Assembly (NCBI RefSeq): GCF_020386615.1
Contig: NZ_CP077769.1
Coordinates: 6,373,501-6,437,500, forward strand
Reading direction: 5' to 3'
Length of the DNA: 64,000 nt
DNA from: Chitinophaga pendula
Lineage (GTDB): Bacteria; Bacteroidota; Bacteroidia; Chitinophagales; Chitinophagaceae
A program made the position numbers and the translations under genes. The first letter of the stretch is position 1; every line of letters starts with the position of its first letter. This document shows, one piece after another, positions 3,903-28,514 of this stretch. The notes beneath the pieces were generated by a model. That model was not told where the DNA came from, ran no database searches, and was given only the letters and a program-made list of their open reading frames with translations.

Positions 3903-5213
3903 ATGAAAAATAATCATTCCACCACAACCAATAACGCATGGCGACTAAAAGCCATCTTTACCGGAGCAGTAGGAAATCTTGTCGAATGGTACGACTGGTA
4001 CGCCTACACTGCCTTCGAATTTTACTTCGCCCCGGTATTTTTCCCGAATGGCAACCGCACCCTCCAACTCCTGAATACCGCCGCCATCTTCGCCGTAGGC
4101 TTCCTGATGCGCCCTATCGGCGGCTGGATGTTTGGCCGTATTGCCGATCGTAGTGGCCGTAAAGCAGCGATGACACTCTCCGTCTTACTCATGTCCCTCG
4201 GCTCCTTGATGATCGCTCTTACGCCTTCTTTTAACACCATCAGCTATGCAGCACCCGCACTCCTACTACTGGCCAGACTACTGCAAGGCCTCAGCGTAGG
4301 CGGCGAATATGGCGCCTCCGCCACCTACCTCAGCGAAGTAGCCACCGCCGACCGCAGAGGCTTCTACTCCAGCTTCCAGTATGTCACCCTCATCGGCGGA
4401 CAACTACTCGCACTCGGCATACAGCTCCTACTGCAAAAGGTGTTCCTGACTCCCGAACAACTACACAACTGGGGATGGCGCATCCCTTTCGCAATCGGCG
4501 CCCTCCTCGCCCTCAGCGCCCTCTTCATGCGCCGCGGCATGCAGGAATCCACCGACGTATCCAACCATCGCGCCGACCGCGGATCACTAAAAACCCTCTT
4601 CTCCAAATACCCCAGGGCCGTACTCACAGTAGTAGGCCTCACCATGGGGGGCACTCTGGCTTTCTATACCTACACCACCTACATGCATAAATTCCTGGTA
4701 AACACAGTACATCTGAGTGAAGAACAATCCACCATGATCGTTTTTTTCCTGCTCTTCATCTATGCAGGCATGCAGCCAATATTCGGATCCCTGTCTGACC
4801 GCTTTGGCAGAAAACCATTACTCGTAGGTTTCGGCGTCCTGGGCACCCTCTTCACCGTACCGATCCTCTCCACACTAAGCCACACCTCCGATGTATGGCA
4901 GGCATTCCTCCTACTGCTCGCAGCATTGGTCATCGTAAGCGGATATACCTCTATCAATGCAGTCGTAAAAGCAGAAATGTTCCCGGCAGAAGTAAGAGCA
5001 TTAGGAGTAGGATTCCCTTATGCCATCACCGTCGCACTATTCGGCGGCACCGCCGGTTATATCGCGCTCTACTTCAAAAAGATAGGCCATGAATCTTACT
5101 ACTACTGGTATGTGACCGGCTGCATATTCATCTCCCTCATCGTATACACCCTCGTAAGAGATACCAAACATACCTCCTTCATAGAAAAGGACCTGACAAA
5201 AACAACAACATAA
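3903..5213 (+). CDS. MFS metabolite:H+ symporter (KgtP/ShiA-like)
   Basis: A 436-aa inner-membrane transporter with about 12 hydrophobic segments. The N-terminal GNLVEWYDWYAYTAF segment and the loop GRIADRSGRKAAM are hallmarks of the metabolite:H+ symporter branch of the major facilitator superfamily, which includes alpha-ketoglutarate, shikimate and proline/betaine carriers. The second cytoplasmic repeat GSLSDRFGRKPLL is also present, as is the family-typical GGEYGASATYLSE. A dicarboxylate or 2-oxoacid substrate is likely, but the sequence does not fix it. It is divergent from rpiA and converges on the quinone oxidoreductase with only 10 nt between stop codons. Confidence 0.9.
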   Translation: MKNNHSTTTNNAWRLKAIFTGAVGNLVEWYDWYAYTAFEFYFAPVFFPNGNRTLQLLNTAAIFAVGFLMRPIGGWMFGRIADRSGRKAAMTLSVLLMSLGSLMIALTPSFNTISYAAPALLLLARLLQGLSVGGEYGASATYLSEVATADRRGFYSSFQYVTLIGGQLLALGIQLLLQKVFLTPEQLHNWGWRIPFAIGALLALSALFMRRGMQESTDVSNHRADRGSLKTLFSKYPRAVLTVVGLTMGGTLAFYTYTTYMHKFLVNTVHLSEEQSTMIVFFLLFIYAGMQPIFGSLSDRFGRKPLLVGFGVLGTLFTVPILSTLSHTSDVWQAFLLLLAALVIVSGYTSINAVVKAEMFPAEVRALGVGFPYAITVALFGGTAGYIALYFKKIGHESYYYWYVTGCIFISLIVYTLVRDTKHTSFIEKDLTKTTT

Positions 5214-5223
5214 TTTCTCAACA

Positions 5224-6195
5224 TTAATCGATCGTCAATACGATCTTGCCTATATGCTGGCTGCTTTCCATCAACTGGTGAGCAGCCGCCGCTTCCGCTA
5301 TAGAGAACGTCTTATATATCACCGGTTTAATAACTCCTTTATCTAATAATGGCCACACTTCCGCCTCCAACGCAGCTGCCACCCCAGCCTTAAATGCAAT
5401 ATCCCGGTTCCGCAATGTGCTGCCCGTAATGGTAAGTCGCTGCCGCATAATATATAACATATCCAACTCGATCAACCCGCCCTCCATCGCATTGATAAAT
5501 ACCAGCCTGCCGTCAGGACTCAACAATCGGATGTTTTTCGGAATATAATCGCCGCCTACCATATCCAGTATCACATCTATCCCCTTGTCCGCCAGCACCG
5601 CCGCAAAATCCGCCGTTCTATAGTTAATACACTGCGTGGCTCCCAGCTGCTCACATACGTAACACTTATCATCATTTCCCGCCGTAGCAAATACAATGGC
5701 ACCAAAAGCCTTCGCCAACTGTATCGCAGTGATGCCAATACCACTCGAACCTCCGTGCACCAGGAAATGCTCTCCCGCCTGCAACCGCCCCCGCTGAAAC
5801 ACATTGTGCCACACTGTAAACATCGTCTCCGGCAGAGAAGCGGCAGCCGCAAAATTCCACCCGGCTGGTACCGGCAAACAATGCTCCGCATGCACGATCA
5901 CATATTCCGCATAACCACCTCCGCCCACCAGAGCACAAACACGATCTCCTACCTGCCAACGCTGCACACCCGCTCCAAGCTCCACAACCTCGCCCGCAAT
6001 CTCCAACCCCGGTATGTCCGCCGGTACTCCCGGCGGCGGCGGATAATTCCCCTTGCGCTGAAAAACATCCGGCCGGTTAATACCCGCCGCATGCACCTTC
6101 ACCAATACTTGCCCTTCTCCGGGCACCGGCCGCGGACGCTCCTGCCATTGCAGTACCTCCGGTCCTCCCGGTGTTGTGATAACAATTGCTTTCAT
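5224..6195 (-). CDS. Zinc-free NAD(P)H:quinone oxidoreductase, PIG3-like MDR family
   Basis: The 323-aa protein belongs to the medium-chain dehydrogenase/reductase superfamily, quinone oxidoreductase branch (TP53I3/PIG3-like). The N-terminal GroES-like part has MKAIVITTPGGPEVLQW and AGINRPDVFQRKGNYPPPPG. The Rossmann cofactor motif is VHGGSSGIGITAIQLAKAFG near residues 143-162. Zinc-binding cysteines of the alcohol dehydrogenases are absent, as expected for this branch. The likely reaction is NADPH-dependent reduction of quinones or other reactive carbonyls. The DUF4375 gene lies 20 nt upstream on the same strand, so the two may be cotranscribed. Confidence 0.92.
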   Translation of the reverse strand: MKAIVITTPGGPEVLQWQERPRPVPGEGQVLVKVHAAGINRPDVFQRKGNYPPPPGVPADIPGLEIAGEVVELGAGVQRWQVGDRVCALVGGGGYAEYVIVHAEHCLPVPAGWNFAAAASLPETMFTVWHNVFQRGRLQAGEHFLVHGGSSGIGITAIQLAKAFGAIVFATAGNDDKCYVCEQLGATQCINYRTADFAAVLADKGIDVILDMVGGDYIPKNIRLLSPDGRLVFINAMEGGLIELDMLYIMRQRLTITGSTLRNRDIAFKAGVAAALEAEVWPLLDKGVIKPVIYKTFSIAEAAAAHQLMESSQHIGKIVLTID

Positions 6196-20830: not shown

Positions 20831-22699
20831 TTATCGTCCCATGTACACCATGAGTATCTGTACATCACTGGGATTTACACCGCTGATCCTGCTGGCCTGC
20901 CCTAATGTACGGGGACGTATTTTGTTGAATTTTTGTCTGGCCTCTGCACTCAGCGATACCAGTTTACCATAATCAAAACTATCTGGAATAATCAGATCTT
21001 CCAGTTGACTCATCTTCTGAACCAACTCCTGCTCCTTCTCTATATAGACATCATACTTCACCTGGATCTCTGCTTGTTCCAGTATCTCCCGGTCATATCC
21101 CTTCAAGGCATTTCCAATCTTGTCTACCTTTTGCATCATAGAGAAAATATCCATTCCAGGACGTAACAACAGCTGGAAAGCTCTTTGTCTTTGTACCAGG
21201 AGAGCAGAATTTTTTTCCTGCAACAGGTGATTAATATCCTCCGGATCAATAGGCAACTCCTTCAGTATTTTTTTAATGGCAGCTACTCCACTCCCTTTCT
21301 CCTCTACACGACGCGCCCTTTCTTCTGAAGCCAGCCCCAGGCGGTAACTTTTCTCCGTGAGTCGCAGATCCGCATTGTCCTGCCTAAGCAAAGTCCTGAA
21401 TTCAGCCCTCGAAGTAAACATACGGTAAGGTTCATCTGTACCCTTATTGATCAGATCATCGATCAATACCCCTATGTAAGCTTCACTCCTTTTCAGAATA
21501 AAAGGTTCCTGTCCGTTCACTTTCAGGTGGGCATTCATCCCCGCCATGAGACCCTGACAGGCAGCTTCTTCATACCCGGTAGTACCATTTATCTGCCCGG
21601 CAAAATAGAGATATGCTATTTGTTTGGTCTCAAGGGTAAACTTCAGCTGGGTAGGTGGGAAGTAATCATACTCGATAGCATACCCGGGACGGAACATCTT
21701 CACGTTCTCAAAACCAGGCACCATCTTCAATGCCTTCATCTGTACATCCTCCGGCAGGGAAGTAGAAAAACCGTTCACATATATTTCTTCCGTGTTCCAG
21801 CCTTCCGGTTCTACAAACAGCTGGTGCCGGTCCCTTTCTGCAAAACGATTGATCTTATCTTCAATACTTGGACAATACCTGGGGCCTACTCCCTGTATCC
21901 TGCCTTGGAACATAGGGCTACGGTCAAACCCCGTCCGAAGCATCTCATGTACCGCTTCGCTGGTATAGGTGATATAGCAGCTTCTCTGCTGGGAAGGTTT
22001 TATTTTTTCTACATCCAGGTAAGAGAACCCGGTGATGATATCGTCCCCTTTCTGTTCTTCCATCCGGGAATAATCCAGACTCCGTCCATCTACCCTGGGA
22101 GGCGTTCCCGTTTTAAGACGATCACTTTCAAAACCCAGGGAAACCAGTTGTTCCGTTATACCGGTGGCCGCGGTTTCCGCCACCCGGCCCCCGCCAAATC
22201 TTTTATCACCGATATGGATCACACCATTAAGAAAAGTACCATTGGTCAGTACCACCGCTTTTGATTTGATCTCATGTCCAAGCCCGGTGATCACCCCGCA
22301 ACAGCTTCCATCTTTTACCAACAGTCCTTTTACCATGTCCTGATAAAAATCCACATTCGATGTCCGCTCCAACGCCTCTCTCCACTTGGCAGCAAATAAC
22401 ATCCGGTCATTCTGGGTACGGGGGCTCCACATCGCAGGACCTTTTGAAAGATTCAGCATACGGAACTGTATCATGGATTGGTCAGTGACAATACCGGAAT
22501 ATCCTCCCAAAGCATCTATCTCCCGAACTATCTGTCCTTTAGCGATTCCACCCATAGCAGGGTTGCAGCTCATCTGCGCGATAGTCTGCATATTCATGGT
22601 CACCAACAATACTTTGGAGCCCATATTGGCAGCAGCAGCCGCTGCCTCGCAACCGGCATGACCGGCGCCTACCACAATTACATCGTAAGAAGGAAACAT
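20831..22699 (-). CDS. mnmG: tRNA uridine-5-carboxymethylaminomethyl modification enzyme MnmG
   Basis: MnmG (GidA) is a FAD enzyme that, with MnmE, adds the carboxymethylaminomethyl group at C5 of the wobble uridine in several tRNAs. The 622-aa product has the dinucleotide-binding VVGAGHAGCEAAAAAANMG at the start, SCNPAMGGIAKGQ near residues 44-56, TGTPPRVDGRSLDYS near 200, and MFTSRAEFRTLLRQDNADLRL near 380, all family-typical. mnmG is classically found near chromosome origins, which fits the parS-like site just upstream (22768) and the DnaA-box cluster 5 kb away. It ends at a strong bidirectional terminator. Confidence 0.98.
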   Translation of the reverse strand: MFPSYDVIVVGAGHAGCEAAAAAANMGSKVLLVTMNMQTIAQMSCNPAMGGIAKGQIVREIDALGGYSGIVTDQSMIQFRMLNLSKGPAMWSPRTQNDRMLFAAKWREALERTSNVDFYQDMVKGLLVKDGSCCGVITGLGHEIKSKAVVLTNGTFLNGVIHIGDKRFGGGRVAETAATGITEQLVSLGFESDRLKTGTPPRVDGRSLDYSRMEEQKGDDIITGFSYLDVEKIKPSQQRSCYITYTSEAVHEMLRTGFDRSPMFQGRIQGVGPRYCPSIEDKINRFAERDRHQLFVEPEGWNTEEIYVNGFSTSLPEDVQMKALKMVPGFENVKMFRPGYAIEYDYFPPTQLKFTLETKQIAYLYFAGQINGTTGYEEAACQGLMAGMNAHLKVNGQEPFILKRSEAYIGVLIDDLINKGTDEPYRMFTSRAEFRTLLRQDNADLRLTEKSYRLGLASEERARRVEEKGSGVAAIKKILKELPIDPEDINHLLQEKNSALLVQRQRAFQLLLRPGMDIFSMMQKVDKIGNALKGYDREILEQAEIQVKYDVYIEKEQELVQKMSQLEDLIIPDSFDYGKLVSLSAEARQKFNKIRPRTLGQASRISGVNPSDVQILMVYMGR

Positions 22700-22767: not shown

Positions 22768-22783
22768 TGTTCCACGTGGAACA
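22768..22783. other. parS-like ParB binding site 1
   Basis: TGTTCCACGTGGAACA is a perfect 16-bp palindrome matching the bacterial parS pattern (TGTTnCACGTGnAACA; B. subtilis has TGTTTCACGTGAAACA). It lies in the short gap between mnmG and the small membrane-protein gene. An identical copy is 468 bases to the right. Paired copies next to mnmG strongly suggest a centromere-like site bound by ParB near the origin. Confidence 0.88.
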
Positions 22784-23235: not shown

Positions 23236-23251
23236 TGTTCCACGTGGAACA
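23236..23251. other. parS-like ParB binding site 2
   Basis: A second identical TGTTCCACGTGGAACA palindrome, located between the membrane-protein gene and the ybeY stop codon, which it nearly touches. Both copies are followed by TTT on the + strand. Two perfect copies of a 16-base palindrome within 500 bases cannot reasonably be chance. Confidence 0.88.
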
Positions 23252-23252
23252 T

Positions 23253-23678
23253 TTACTTGGAAAAATATTTTTGAAGATATTCTTCTTCTTTTTCTCTCAT
23301 CAACGACGCCTCTTTTTTCGTTTTATCCTTGAAACCACAAAGATGTAATGCACCGTGAAAAATAACGCGGTGTAATTCCTGCTCCGGAGATACCCCATAT
23401 TTTTCCGCATTATCCTTTACCCGATCCACACTCACATAAACCTCCCCCTCCGTAATAGCAGGATCATCACTCATCTCAAAAGTCACTATATCAGTATACG
23501 TATCATGTTGCAAAAAAGATTGATTGATCTCCAACAAATAATCATCAGAACAAAAGATATACTGTAGCCCAGATAATCCCTGTTGTTCTGCAGCAAATAG
23601 ATCCTTTAAAAAGGACTTTAACCTGGTCTTGTTCCTGAGATCTAATTTAATCTCATGTGCTATAAAGTTAATCGCCAT
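23253..23678 (-). CDS. ybeY: Endoribonuclease YbeY (16S rRNA maturation)
   Basis: YbeY is a zinc-dependent endoribonuclease needed for 16S rRNA 3'-end maturation and ribosome quality control. The 141-aa product carries the UPF0054 metal site HGALHLCGFKD near residues 105-115; the usual third His of the HxxxHxxxxxH pattern is replaced by Asp, a variant I associate with Bacteroidota YbeY. FCSDDYLLEINQSFLQHDTYTDIVTFEM is the conserved central block in two adjoining parts (about 42-70). The frame extends upstream to 24026, but the ATG at 23678 (MAINFIAHEI) matches the family start, and a longer product would run over the divergent feoA gene. Confidence 0.94.
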   Translation of the reverse strand: MAINFIAHEIKLDLRNKTRLKSFLKDLFAAEQQGLSGLQYIFCSDDYLLEINQSFLQHDTYTDIVTFEMSDDPAITEGEVYVSVDRVKDNAEKYGVSPEQELHRVIFHGALHLCGFKDKTKKEASLMREKEEEYLQKYFSK

Positions 23679-23841
23679 GTTTCTCGCTATCCGTAATAAA
23701 GATGTAAAAGTATAGTGAAATTTTGGTTTACAGCACCTCCGTGTTTGGCCAATTGCCACCGGACAGATACCTTTGTTCATTATTCCATTGCAAGTCTCCC
23801 GAAAACGAATGGCAAAGTTCATCACGATTAATCGTAGGTAC

Positions 23842-24078
23842 ATGAAAAAAGAAATGATCAAACTTTCTGCATTAAGCACAGGTAGAAGCGCAGTTATAAT
23901 AGAATTTGAAAAAGACGATCTGCATATTAAACTCATGGAAATGGGATGTGTGCCAGGCGAAACCGTTAAGATCGAAAAAATTGCCCCCCTGGGAGACCCA
24001 ATATCTATCATGGTAGCAGGATACAATCTGTCCCTCCGAAAAACAGAAGCCGATCATATTTGGGTAGAGGAAATTTAA
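23842..24078 (+). CDS. feoA: FeoA domain protein
   Basis: A 78-aa SH3-like FeoA protein, the small cytosolic partner of the FeoB ferrous-iron transporter. Diagnostic segments are IKLSALSTGRSAVI, LMEMGCVPGETVKIEKIAPLGDP and the C-terminal LSLRKTEADHIWVE. The frame opens at 23773, but ATG 23842 (MKKEMIKLS) gives the standard family length. It is unusual in standing alone: no feoB follows, and the next 2.66 kb is non-coding. feoB may be elsewhere or joined to its own FeoA domain. It is divergent from ybeY. Confidence 0.9.
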   Translation: MKKEMIKLSALSTGRSAVIIEFEKDDLHIKLMEMGCVPGETVKIEKIAPLGDPISIMVAGYNLSLRKTEADHIWVEEI

Positions 24079-24282
24079 AGTTCCTCTTTTTGCCGCCATG
24101 CCTCCACCTCTATTGTGATCACTGTATCCAACAAAATCAATATACCGCCCCCTTTATCGTATTACATCCACCAGACTCCCAGTCTCCAGCGCATTAAAAG
24201 ACATCAAACAACTCCTTCCTATCCAAAAACTATAAGATGCACACACTTCTCGCATTGGAATCTACCCTTCCCCCCAGGCCCC

Positions 24283-24530
24283 CTTTATACAAGTACACGT
24301 GTAGACAATAAAAAATATATACCCTCCACACATTAAAAGCCATCCTTCTCACCCATACAAGCCTTTATACAAGCACACGTGTAGACAATAAAATGCATAC
24401 CCTCCACACATTAAAGCCATCCTTCTCACCCATACAAGCCTTTATACAAGCACACGTGTAGACAATGAAATGCATACCCTCCACACAATTAAATGTCATT
24501 CTTCTCACCCATACAAGCACACCTGCAGAT
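24283..24530. repeat. 3.3 copies of a ~78-bp tandem direct repeat
   Basis: Units begin at CTTTATAC on 24283, 24363 and 24440, giving periods of 80 and 77 bases, with a partial fourth copy after 24517. Shared blocks are ACACGTGTAGACAAT, ATACCCTCCACACA and TTCTCACCCATACAAG. Each full unit has an ACACGTGT palindrome (24295-24302, 24375-24382, 24452-24459) whose CACGTG core is the same as in the parS-like sites. Copies differ at several positions and by small indels, so the array is not a recent duplication. Confidence 0.9.
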
Positions 24531-25254
24531 ATTAATTGACTGTACTCCTTCTTACATTGCTTCCCAAAATCATTAAGTGTATGCATTCCAGGTAATCGGT
24601 CCAAATCCTCTCTCATCAACTTTATCACAAACAAATATCCACTTGCACAGATCCAAATCCGAATTCGTTATTCCTATCAGTGCCTTCACCGAATCACCAG
24701 GTACGTCTCCATGCGATTAAATCGAATTCAATCCTTACCCGCCAAACACTCTCAACTTGCTCCGTCAACACCTTGGTTCTCTCCCGGTCAAACACATTAA
24801 AATTCGCTCCTCAGCTTTTATCGCCTGCTACCTGGCTCCGTACTTTATTGGATATAGTAAGCTCATCTCCCCTCCTTTCGCTGATATCAACAGAACCTCC
24901 TACACCTCCAAATACCAATAAATAATCCATTCTCAGCCTTCCTACTATGCCTGCTGGCCCTGGCGGAATACCTTCATCCTGCCCTACCCCTTGTGTTTAT
25001 AGAAATTTGATATTCTCCGCTCTTTGTAAATGCCTGCTCCTTAACTGCTTTTGGATATCTCCGTACATACCTCGGCAAAAAACATCCACACAATTCTCAG
25101 GCGATAGTAGTCGCCTCCCAGTTTGTTTCCCGAAACACATATCCGGGGATGTATCAAGCGAATAAACTTTCAGCATAATCTCAGCCCTTGGCAAACCAAG
25201 GGAGAATTCCGTCAAACCCTTCCACTGAATACAACTTAGTTAAAACGACCTCCG

Positions 25255-26620
25255 TTCAATTCTCAGGGCTTAAATAACGCGCTGAGATTATCCCTGGTAA
25301 TAAATATAAAAACAGTTGCAGGTGAGTTTTAAAATATTCAATGCTCAGCGCTCTTCTTATCCGGCGAGGATCAAGCGTAAATACAGTTTTCGCGCTGTGT
25401 ATAGAAACAAAAAAAATTTTTATTTCTAAGCGCCTCTATCACCTCAGGAGGTTCGCATGCGATATCATTTTATGGACATACCCAAAGAACAAATAAAATA
25501 AGCCATTCTCAAAGCCCTGTATGTGCTATTAAAATAGTACCAACAATAAACTCCCGGGGTGACCAGGAGAAAATAAGCAGAATTGAAATCTCAAGCCTTT
25601 GTAAAAAGGCTCAAAAACGCGCGAAAAACATTTTCCTGGCATAGGGGAAGGAGCATAGGAATATATTCGATTCTGAGCGCTTAAAAAGCCCGCTGACAAT
25701 CGCTTATTATTATCCTCGTTGGTAGATAGTAGGAAAAAGTAGAAATTTTAAAATCTCAGCGCTTTAAGAAGACGCTGAGATTGCTACAATGTAAAATTAG
25801 TGATACAAACAGCCACCGGAAATAAATATTCAATTCTCAGCGCCCTTATTAGCCAGCGAGAATGAGCAAAAAGATTTTAGCAGATCCCATACTTCAGAAG
25901 GAAAGTTTTTACGCCATTCACATATCATTGCTTCAGCACGCTAAAAAAATTTGAAGCAACATTTTCAGATCGCTTTACAGATCATATTTGTAATACTAGG
26001 GTAAAGCAAAAAAAAATTTTAAAATCTCAGCGTTTTAACGAGCAGCTGAGATTTCCATAGATAGGCTTGATCCGCCTCGCAGCAAGTAATCGGGAAAATA
26101 TTCAATTCTCAGCGCCTGAACAAGCCAATGAGAATTGACCCATATTGTGTTGTCCGTGGTTACTATCAACACGAAATCAAAATAAGCAATCCTCAGCGTG
26201 TTAATAATGCCGCGAGAATTAGCCAAAAATCAGATATCCTATACCTTCATCAGCAATTAACCAAATATTGAAATCTCAGCGCCTTCTAAAAGTGCTGAGA
26301 ATTAAATATTCATGGCGTAATCAGACTAACCCACTGATTTTATAAAAATATCGCACTCTCATCGCCTTGTTAAAGCGCTGAGAATTTATTTTTTGAAGTA
26401 ATGAAAGGAATAGATGGGTTAACAAAACTGTAAAAGCGCTCATAGCATACAGCCTAACCAAAGATAAAGTCCGCTTCCAGTAGGGAATAGCGCAAAATAT
26501 ATCGTAACTTCATTCGCTAAATCTGTCTCGTAATGTACCAGAATTGAATAGTCCTGGTAATACCGTTGCCGAAAAAAACTATTTCACTCTCAGCTCGCTG
26601 GTCAGGCGCTGAGAATTGAA
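25255..26620. repeat. ~82-bp periodic array of imperfect hairpins (about 13 recognisable of up to 17 units)
   Basis: Each unit has a left arm like ATTCTCAGCGC, about 11 spacer bases and a right arm like GCGCTGAGAAT. CTCAG or its variant starts at 25262, 25344, 25590, 25673, 25755, 25836, 25932, 26026, 26108, 26192, 26275, 26358 and 26589. Most steps are 81-84, and the 246-base step equals three units. Perfect 10-bp stems occur at 25752-25782, 26022-26054 and 26102-26138. The unit at 25928-25959 has different arms (TTGCTTCA and TGAAGCAA) that still pair, suggesting selection on structure. Left flanks are AT-rich and of recurring types (TTTTAAAATCTCAG, ATATTCAATTCTCAG). Linkers are not conserved. 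Confidence 0.88.
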
Positions 26621-26628
26621 TAAATAAA

Positions 26629-26673
26629 AAACCCTCCAGGTATTGGCAGAAATACTGCACTCCTGGAGGGTTT
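26629..26673 (-). terminator. Intrinsic terminator downstream of nadA
   Basis: A perfect 12-bp stem (26629-26640 with 26662-26673) contains a small inner hairpin (GCAG-AAATA-CTGC, 26646-26658). On the minus strand the stem is followed by a T-rich run (TTTTTTATTTATTC), placing it as the terminator of the leftward nadA gene 67 bases away. Confidence 0.8.
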
Positions 26674-26739
26674 GATGCCTTTATTGGTCGATACTAACTA
26701 TATTAATACTTTACAACTAATTGAAAATCAATTAGTTAA

Positions 26740-27747
26740 TTACAATCCCGCTTGGGCGCTTATTTCTAACATGCGCTCAATAGGTTTCCTGGCTGCTATA
26801 CGCAAAGTCTCATCCATCGTAATCTCAGGTTCTTCGTACTCCATACAGAGATATAGTTTCTCCAGCGTGTTCAATTTCATGTGCGGACAATCATTGCAAG
26901 CACAGGCATTGTTAGGTGGAGCTGGAATGTAAGTCTTGTCTGGATTCTCTTTCTGCATCTGGTGCAGAATTCCCGTTTCGGTCACAACGATATATTCCTT
27001 CGCACTATCCCTTTGCGTAAATTTCAGCAAACCCGTCGTGGAACCGATGTAGTCAGCAACATCCAAAACCGCCTGCTCACATTCCGGATGTGCAATCACC
27101 TTCGCATAAGGATGTCTCACTTTCAATTTCAGAATCTTCTCAAGAGAGAATATCTCATGTACCATGCAGGCACCGTTCCACAACTTCATTTCCCGGCCCG
27201 TCTTTTTCATCAGGTATGCACCCAGGTTTCTGTCAGGTGCAAAAATGATAGGCTGGTCTTTCGGAACACTTTCAATTATTTTTTCTGCATTCGAAGAAGT
27301 ACAAATAATATCACTGAGTGCCTTGATACCGGCAGAACAGTTGATGTAAGAAATCACCAGGTGATCAGGATACTTTTCCTTAAACTTCCGGAATAATTCA
27401 GGTGGAGCACTGTCTGCCAGTGAACAGCCAGCTTTCAGATCGGGTAACAACACTTTTTTCTGAGGACTGAGGATCTTAGCCGTCTCCGCCATAAAGTGTA
27501 CGCCGGCAAAAACTATAATATCCGCATCAGTTTTGGCGGCTTGCTGACTAAGTCCAAGACTGTCTCCAATGTAATCCGCTACATCCTGAATATCCGGTTC
27601 CTGATAATAGTGCGCCAGGACGATAGCATTCTTCTCTTTTTTCAGCCTTTCAATTTCAGCGAAGAGGTCCAGGTTGACGTCAATAGGTATATCCAAAAAA
27701 CCATTACGCTGCAAATTTTTTTTTGCGTTGGTCAGCTCCCTAATCAT
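26740..27747 (-). CDS. nadA: Quinolinate synthase NadA
   Basis: NadA uses a [4Fe-4S] cluster to condense iminoaspartate with dihydroxyacetone phosphate into quinolinate in de novo NAD synthesis. The 335-aa product has [20 protein letters not shown] near residues 45-64, the cluster cysteine in LKAGCSLAD (Cys108), [10 protein letters not shown] and CTSSNA in the middle, HPECEQAV, and the C-terminal [14 protein letters not shown]. No nadB or nadC is adjacent. The gap upstream (27748-28514) holds the DnaA-box cluster, so this gene borders the probable origin on its left. Confidence 0.97.
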
Positions 27748-27799
27748 AATTATATATCTATTTATTTATTTAAAAAGAAAAACCCACTACTATTAGGGC

Positions 27800-28514
27800 C
27801 GTGAATATGTGGAAATTAAATTTTTAGCCCGTGTACAAATGTAGTTGTTATTCTTCTGAGCTAGGCTATCCACAGGAAATTAACACGCTAAAATCCCGCC
27901 AATATTGACTTTCTATATAGTATTCCACATAGGTGGATATCGGGGAACGTGAAAATCTTTTAGTCAGGAGCTATATTAAAAAAGTGTTAACAGTTGGGCG
28001 GAACTATTCACAGCAAATCCGGTTTTTGAGCGGAAATGATTTCTGTGGGAATAACAAAATTAGTTTTCCCTCTTCATGAGGGTAGGTTTTCCCACCTGTT
28101 TTCTGATTTATCTAGGGCTTTTACACAGCCAATGTGGAAAAAATTGCTTCAAAACACCACCGACGTTTTAAAGAGCTGTAATAGCCTGTAAATAGTTTTT
28201 ATACACATTTGGGGTGTGAATGAAGAAATTAACATTTTTCAGTTTTGTGAATAAGCACCCAGGTACCTACACCGTCGAAAAATGCCCAAATATTTGCTCC
28301 TTATAGCAAAAAGGTACATTGAAATTAGTAAATTTACCTATCAACCAACAGAGCAGCTTTGTGGATAACCTGTGAAATATGACCTGACGGAAAGCAGGTT
28401 CTACTTCTTGAAATCCTTTACTGTATTGGATTTGATGCCAAAAAAACCTATTTTGCAGTTACAGTTATTTTATTCTATTTTTGCTTTCCTTAAAAATTTA
28501 TACTATATAATATT
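27800..28514. other. Probable chromosomal replication origin (oriC)
   Basis: This gene-free gap contains one perfect DnaA box (TGTGGATAA, 28360-28368) and four boxes with one mismatch (27866-27874, 28133-28141, 28199-28207, 28246-28254). Boxes with two mismatches lie at 27808-27816, 27921-27929, 28004-28012 and 28119-28127. Under equal base use about 0.16 boxes with at most one mismatch are expected in 735 bases; five are seen, though AT-richness raises the expectation. A very AT-rich end (28441-28514) could be the unwinding element. Genes on either side diverge (nadA leftward, ppiD-like rightward), and parS-like sites and mnmG lie about 5 kb away. dnaA itself is not in the window. Confidence 0.72.

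Follow-up and report, generated by a model that had tools for sequence, protein, structure and literature searches.

An array of regularly spaced palindromes beside the probable replication origin of Chitinophaga pendula

The gene-free DNA between a feoA-like gene and nadA in Chitinophaga pendula carries an array of 31-bp imperfect palindromes set about 82 bp apart. Judging from comparisons among related genomes, this array appears to have been kept through long evolution in Chitinophaga, a genus of soil bacteria, and is probably bound by a putative protein. The stretch analyzed, from now on referred to as the window, comprises 64,000 nucleotides of a single 7.66-Mb contig of a Chitinophaga genome. 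Comparisons cover 78 other Chitinophaga genomes, one assembly per species, with the locus of G072 and the gap of G004 absent because contigs end there.

Anatomy of the palindrome array

The array lies on the plus strand and spans about 24929-26616 of the window, as delimited by weight-matrix matches and the step pattern, with a weak left end. Inverted repeats recurring every 81-84 bp had been noted in the preliminary description. A weight matrix, for which 22 gaps with the window's among them served as the training set and reversed gaps and flanks as controls, confirms 15 strong units at a score of at least 11 in the window's gap, and the array, which also contains weaker units, is longer than first described and extends further left. 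The reversed, non-complemented gap yields no match even at a score of 4. Nine consecutive 31-bp units of the ATTCTCAGCGC-N9-GCGCTGAGAAT type form an unbroken plus-strand run at 25177-25863 with steps of 81-83 bp (starts 25177, 25259, 25341, 25423, 25505, 25587, 25670, 25752 and 25833). Five further consecutive plus-strand units are found at 26023-26385 (starts 26023, 26105, 26189, 26272 and 26355), and a last one, also on the plus strand, at 26586-26616, its start 231 bp past the preceding start. The start-to-start steps of the 15 units are 82, 82, 82, 82, 82, 83, 82, 81, 190, 82, 84, 83, 83 and 231 bp, 12 of the 14 falling within 81-84 bp. Three weak leftmost units on the same strand (24929-25123, starts 24929, 25012 and 25093) keep this step going leftward; those at 24929 and 25093 scored 7.2 and 6.3, and the one at 25012 was placed by eye. 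No one period fits the whole array, because its phase shifts at two points, with a 190-bp step before 26023 and a 231-bp step before 26586. The mean phase vector is 0.57 at 82 bp and 0.84 at 84 bp (n=15).

Across units, conservation is much stronger in the left arm than in the right arm. Copies show 60-85% ungapped identity to the reference copy, and the array is not among the repeats reported by Tandem Repeats Finder, from which it follows that the copies are diverged. This agrees with the earlier view that the geometry is unlike CRISPR, since near-identical direct repeats are lacking. The region had likewise been described as non-coding, and the feoA-nadA gap (24079-26739) indeed holds no ORF longer than 83 aa according to a script counting ATG starts.

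Tandem Repeats Finder also reports a 77-bp tandem repeat between feoA and the array (24282-24518; three copies, 92% matches, CACGTG core). Straight after the array, a strong hairpin of the CCCTCCAGG...CCTGGAGGG type is located at 26628-26675 and is likely the nadA terminator.

Gene neighborhood and origin region

Left of the gap, mnmG (20831-22699, minus strand, Pfam GIDA) is followed by ybeY (23253-24026, minus strand), for which the coordinates are those of the listed ORF, with a Pfam YbeY match over residues 147-253 of 257 and a true start probably further in. The feoA-like gene (23773-24078, plus strand, Pfam FeoA) forms the left edge of the gap, and nadA (26740-27747, minus strand, Pfam NadA) lies between the array and the core origin. 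Two perfect copies of the parS-like sequence TGTTCCACGTGGAACA on the plus strand, at 22768-22783 and 23236-23251, are the sole parS sites in the genome at up to 1 mismatch, and both are outside the array. The probable core origin is found at 27748-28514, placed by DnaA-like boxes (up to 1 mismatch) at 27866, 28133, 28199, 28246 and 28360 and by the conserved box positions of relatives in an alignment. The parS-like pair and the DnaA-like cluster of five boxes (27866-28368), both pointed out previously, thus hold up. Throughout the window, 15 DnaA-like boxes at up to 1 mismatch compare with a shuffle mean of 17.1, so there is no excess; what stands out is how the boxes cluster locally and are conserved, not their overall number.

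Of 25 loci compared, that of the window's species among them, 24 have at least two DnaA boxes within 1.5 kb upstream of nadA. Recurrent box positions upstream of nadA are near -620, -506 and -395, and each of these 24 loci has a box at about -608 to -622. A parS site lies between mnmG and ybeY in all 75 loci that have both genes; these loci hold 211 parS sites in total, 209 of them so placed. GC skew changes sign inside the window, with a cumulative minimum near 36-37 kb, 8-9 kb from the DnaA boxes, and was noisy in 20 samples taken elsewhere. Based on DnaA boxes, parS and skew taken together, the region comprising parS, ybeY and feoA, the array, nadA and the DnaA boxes is very probably the origin region, not placed to the base.

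Distribution of the array among relatives

The order mnmG, ybeY, feoA, gap, nadA is the same in 75 of the relatives' 77 nadA loci. The remaining two, in which contigs end, lack mnmG in one case and all three neighbors in the other. An array of at least 7 units in the same slot and orientation of the feoA-nadA gap was identified in 30 of the 76 relatives with gap sequence, a count of related species and not of independent events. Among the 46 relatives without it, 34 have no unit and 12 have one or two. The flank control gave 11 matches in 1.21 Mb, both strands counted, corresponding to 2.5 expected in the gaps. In trees built from three proteins by quick search and rooted at the midpoint, all 30 array-bearing relatives fall on one side of one branch (SH-aLRT 98), with the window's species on an unresolved branch, and two state changes suffice to explain array presence, compared with a mean of 24 for shuffled labels.

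The preliminary description had looked to the same array beside the same neighbors in relatives for support and had regarded relatives with these neighbors and no array as evidence against it. The expected support was obtained in 30 of the 76; the other 46, with fewer than 7 units, are of the contrary kind, so that the genus as a whole does not require the array. Yet presence follows the tree, some array-less relatives carry one-armed units, found on the other strand, and six carry another array in the same gap (L064, L070, L071, L100, L102 and L127). The latter consists of TCCCGAAAAA or TCCGAAAAAC together with CATTCAGAAA, has a spacing of roughly 130-136 bp as read from the list, is unrelated to the main palindrome and belongs to another Chitinophaga clade. 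In light of this different array, the feoA-nadA slot may be filled by fast-changing arrays, by analogy with the satellites that fill centromeres.

A genus-wide search of 79 genomes, including C. pendula, with a model of the unit returned, among the matches listed, at least 6 matches at E<=0.001 in 31 genomes, 1-2 in 5 and none in 43. In the 7.66-Mb genome of C. pendula itself, all 23 unit-model matches at E<=1 are inside this locus (150 of 894 first-look candidates scored), a result that speaks against the earlier alternative of a scattered REP or MITE. The suggestion of a cis-acting element of the origin region, on the other hand, is borne out by the shared neighbors in relatives and the confinement to one locus. 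Outside the genus, a sequence-only model with stricter filters found no array in 239 genomes of other genera of the family, drawn evenly from a larger group, and one weak match in each of 5. Of 244 genomes screened for the left arm combined with a DnaA box (offset 38, up to 2 mismatches), one gave a match, and it is one of the 5 Chitinophaga included. Array DNA (24900-26640) showed no similarity in plasmid or phage collections. The exact palindrome pattern, TTCTCAGCGC-N8-10-GCGCTGAGAA, was found in 12 stretches of GTDB contigs. Seven of these come from Chitinophaga, and each of the other 5 (L132, L134, L136, L138 and L139) is a single perfect copy in a record unrelated to it, a number somewhat above simple base odds. 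The five records belong to Verrucomicrobiaceae, Lachnospiraceae, Thermomonospora, Chloroflexi and one bin.

Fixed spacing and diverged linkers

The spacing analysis used 20 selected species, the remaining ten of the 30-species clade having shifted or shorter layouts. Array length across these 20 species, measured from the unit at about -1138 to nadA, is 1126-1142 bp (sd 5.2), compared with 410-941 bp (sd 181) for the segment between that unit and feoA. All 20 species share a 74-bp step, and an 82-bp step recurs in all 12 that have both of its units; the kept series reads 82, 74, 82 and 85 bp. Other steps are mostly 81-84 or 85-86 bp, the more variable ones being 214-222 bp, 105-117 bp and one 73 in place of 82. 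Among species pairs of the most distant bin, 254 of 304 step comparisons differ by no more than 1 bp, and the 143 linkers of equal length have an identity of 0.41 versus 0.29 when shuffled. Unit-specific features, namely one-armed units and the second palindrome described below, sit at unchanged positions in an alignment of the 20 species. Taken together, the 31 arrays comprise 309 consecutive steps, of which 174 measure 80-84 bp and 53 measure 72-75 bp.

A second palindrome and DnaA boxes in the gap

A second palindrome, GGGGTWACCCC, is centered 41 bp, or half a repeat, from the main palindrome. Sequences matching it at 7 or more of 10 positions occur in 54 of 245 linkers from 25 species, 52 of the 54 at an offset of 51-52 from the unit start, which places two dyads 41 bp apart. 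Shuffled linkers reach 7 of 10 in 9 of 245 cases and at least 8 of 10 in none, versus 33 observed; as the motif was first read from the alignment of the 20 species, this count is not independent of its choice, but the fixed offset is. A copy in register in the window, GGGGTGACCAG (25556-25566, plus strand, 8 of 10), was assigned by the offset rule and begins 31 bp before the unit at 25587. A motif-free profile of dyad symmetry showed no signal at the 41-bp point, its top offsets lying in and beside the unit.

One-armed units, defined here as the 308 left-arm matrix matches on both strands of all 77 gaps, carry a DnaA box (up to 1 mismatch) at offset 38 in 16 cases and at offset 34 in 13, compared with a mean of 0.5 per offset. 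The combination of one-armed unit and DnaA box is also present in the array-less genomes L054, L066, L069, L072 and L080. Overall, the 77 gaps contain 231 DnaA-like boxes against 11.2 expected, and the 31 gaps with an array contain 156 against 5.3 expected, with at least 3 boxes in 21 gaps; the TT[AT]T[CT]CACA box is absent from 4 gaps, namely the window's own and 3 of the other 30 with an array. Two-armed units show no clear DnaA-box peak. Because of this and the box-free gaps, the link between array and DnaA is not universal. In some species, DnaA-like boxes are repeated directly with a period of about 51 or 62 bp, immediately upstream of the palindromes. The gaps of L094, L111 and L101 hold long arrays of 15 to 21 DnaA-like boxes beside the palindromes, mostly spaced every 62 bp.

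Putative palindromic protein sites versus hairpins

Stems kept by selection for pairing had been proposed for these units, however, arms exchanged between units pair as well as the two arms of one unit. In 268 units of 22 arrays, 1914 Watson-Crick cells were counted within units versus 1942 +/- 18.5 after permutation within the array (z -1.5), and G-U pairs within these units showed no excess. Selection for pairing is therefore not supported. Mean folding energy for 340 units of 31 arrays was -8.06 kcal/mol compared with -7.86 kcal/mol for arm-exchanged chimeras, with z-scores over the 31 arrays of -1.2 for the plus strand and -2.5 for the minus strand, and of -3.1 for array L114 alone. The 15 units of the window average -10.1 kcal/mol versus -9.3 in the within-array control (z -1.2). 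A set reduced by hand to 52 units that had been preselected for pairing is 80.2% paired versus 79.0% when shuffled, with 35 of 500 shuffles as high and 21 of 500 reaching its covariation score. The unit at 25928-25959, whose differing but still pairing arms had been taken to suggest selection for pairing, sits about 12 bp out of register, the expected spot being occupied by a degenerate ATTCACA at 25916, and is therefore weak evidence for compensatory change. Many units are one-armed. Given the lack of within-unit covariation and the far better conserved left arm, the units fit the half-sites of a protein-binding palindrome better than a stem, and thus look like putative palindromic, double-stranded protein sites.

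Interpretation and rival explanations

We favor, at somewhat better than even confidence, an interpretation in which the array is a lattice for a putative dimeric protein that would act with DnaA to organize or time initiation. We hypothesize that a homodimeric or tetrameric DNA-binding protein would occupy the palindromic double-stranded sites. The half-sites TTCTCA/TGAGAA are separated by about two helical turns, and GGGGTWACCCC lies 41 bp away; with this geometry, bound protein would be able to wrap or fold some 1.2-1.7 kb of DNA into a single, regular complex. This complex would most likely serve, together with DnaA, as a platform or sink by the core origin, controlling the timing of initiation. 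Among the points against this interpretation, a step of 82 bp amounts to a non-integral 7.8 turns of 10.5 bp each, and the left-arm bias exceeds what a simple symmetric dimer needs. A more elaborate version is possible, though less likely than not. Here, a putative Chitinophaga protein on a two-palindrome lattice with 41-bp alternation would form a regular, wrapped nucleoprotein structure in the interval from parS to the core origin. DnaA boxes would be docked on it at fixed places, initiation and segregation would be coupled, and other clades would have replaced the lattice with different arrays in this slot.

RacA or Noc sites and plasmid parC provide models for anchoring and segregation sites, and a centromere-like or anchoring element, with sites for a segregation or nucleoid-anchoring protein working with ParB at parS and not in initiation, is a conceivable but unlikely alternative. 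The parS site 2 kb away in the window, its constant placement between mnmG and ybeY and the suitability of iterated fixed-pitch palindromes for a filament or condensate would all fit such an element, however, the DnaA boxes at fixed distance from one-armed units and the DnaA-box arrays in the gap point to initiation, and parS is also present in array-less species. That the array is a functionless relic, either a decayed satellite or an old REP-like tandem duplication, appears improbable. While the repeats, the differences between species, the many relatives without an array and the different array in six genomes are what a satellite would produce, in 20 species array length and single steps vary by no more than a few bp, even though linkers have diverged and the stretch next to the array differs in length by hundreds of bp; unit-specific features also keep their positions, and the C. 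pendula genome has no dispersed copies. Tandem small structured RNAs, a possibility raised at the outset, or hairpins in single-stranded origin DNA would explain the good folding of the window's units, the minus-strand and L114 values and the pairing and covariation of the preselected set. We consider this very improbable, as within-unit pairing is not in excess on either the pairing count or plus-strand energy, G-U pairs are not favored, one-armed units are frequent, and an Rfam covariance-model scan of the window gave no match at the gathering threshold. It is the covariation results and the spacing that disfavor both the RNA or hairpin and the satellite explanations.

Comparison with known systems

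Non-coding clusters of sites such as datA and DARS tune DnaA outside the core origin. Many relatives carry DnaA boxes in the feoA-nadA gap, which recalls these loci; in E. coli they serve for titration or reactivation of DnaA through DnaA boxes (PMC4585315). The unit of the array is, in contrast, a 31-bp palindrome that does not resemble a DnaA box and recurs at an 82-bp step, and the window's gap is box-free. Iterons, for example the RctB sites of Vibrio cholerae chromosome 2, are short direct repeats spaced at about two turns that are recognized by a replicon-encoded Rep protein. The array shares with them repeated putative sites in one orientation beside an origin, however, its palindromes are long and about eight turns apart, and no Rep gene was found in the ten neighbors scanned. 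REP and BIME elements are imperfect palindromes in gene-free DNA that occur in many scattered copies; the array is similar in its imperfect palindromes and gene-free setting, but occupies one locus of its own genome with a fixed pitch and conserved positions. Centromere-like arrays, which include direct repeats of Deinococcus secondary replicons (PMC7671480), and clusters of parS are comparable in being origin-proximal, the known ones being linked to segregation. Unlike parS clusters, the array has a sequence unrelated to parS, and parS is present separately, outside the array. Iterons, DnaA-box clusters and centromere arrays are thus known kinds of element, and the 41/82-bp two-palindrome lattice did not come out as a member of any of them. 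Titles and abstracts from the searched literature on origins and ParB in Bacteroidota-type bacteria, which includes Cytophaga hutchinsonii papers mentioning oriC, gave no account of such an array.

A strictly spaced origin-side array in 30 related species offers a direct handle, through probe DNA and spacing mutants, on a putative new origin-binding factor, and the array types across clades represent a natural series for the evolution of origin control. An autoregulated gene was considered as a pointer to the binding protein and rejected, as the off-locus units among the matches listed (G047 contig 8 and G077 contig 3) do not precede an evident regulator. The former is a one-armed unit at about 5003-5045 of L129, near two Disulph_isomer genes. 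The latter is a full unit at 5339-5369 of L174; it closely follows an ORF (4512-5303), the end of which resembles a short-chain dehydrogenase on visual reading. In other clades, AraC and SDR genes occupy the feoA-nadA gap.
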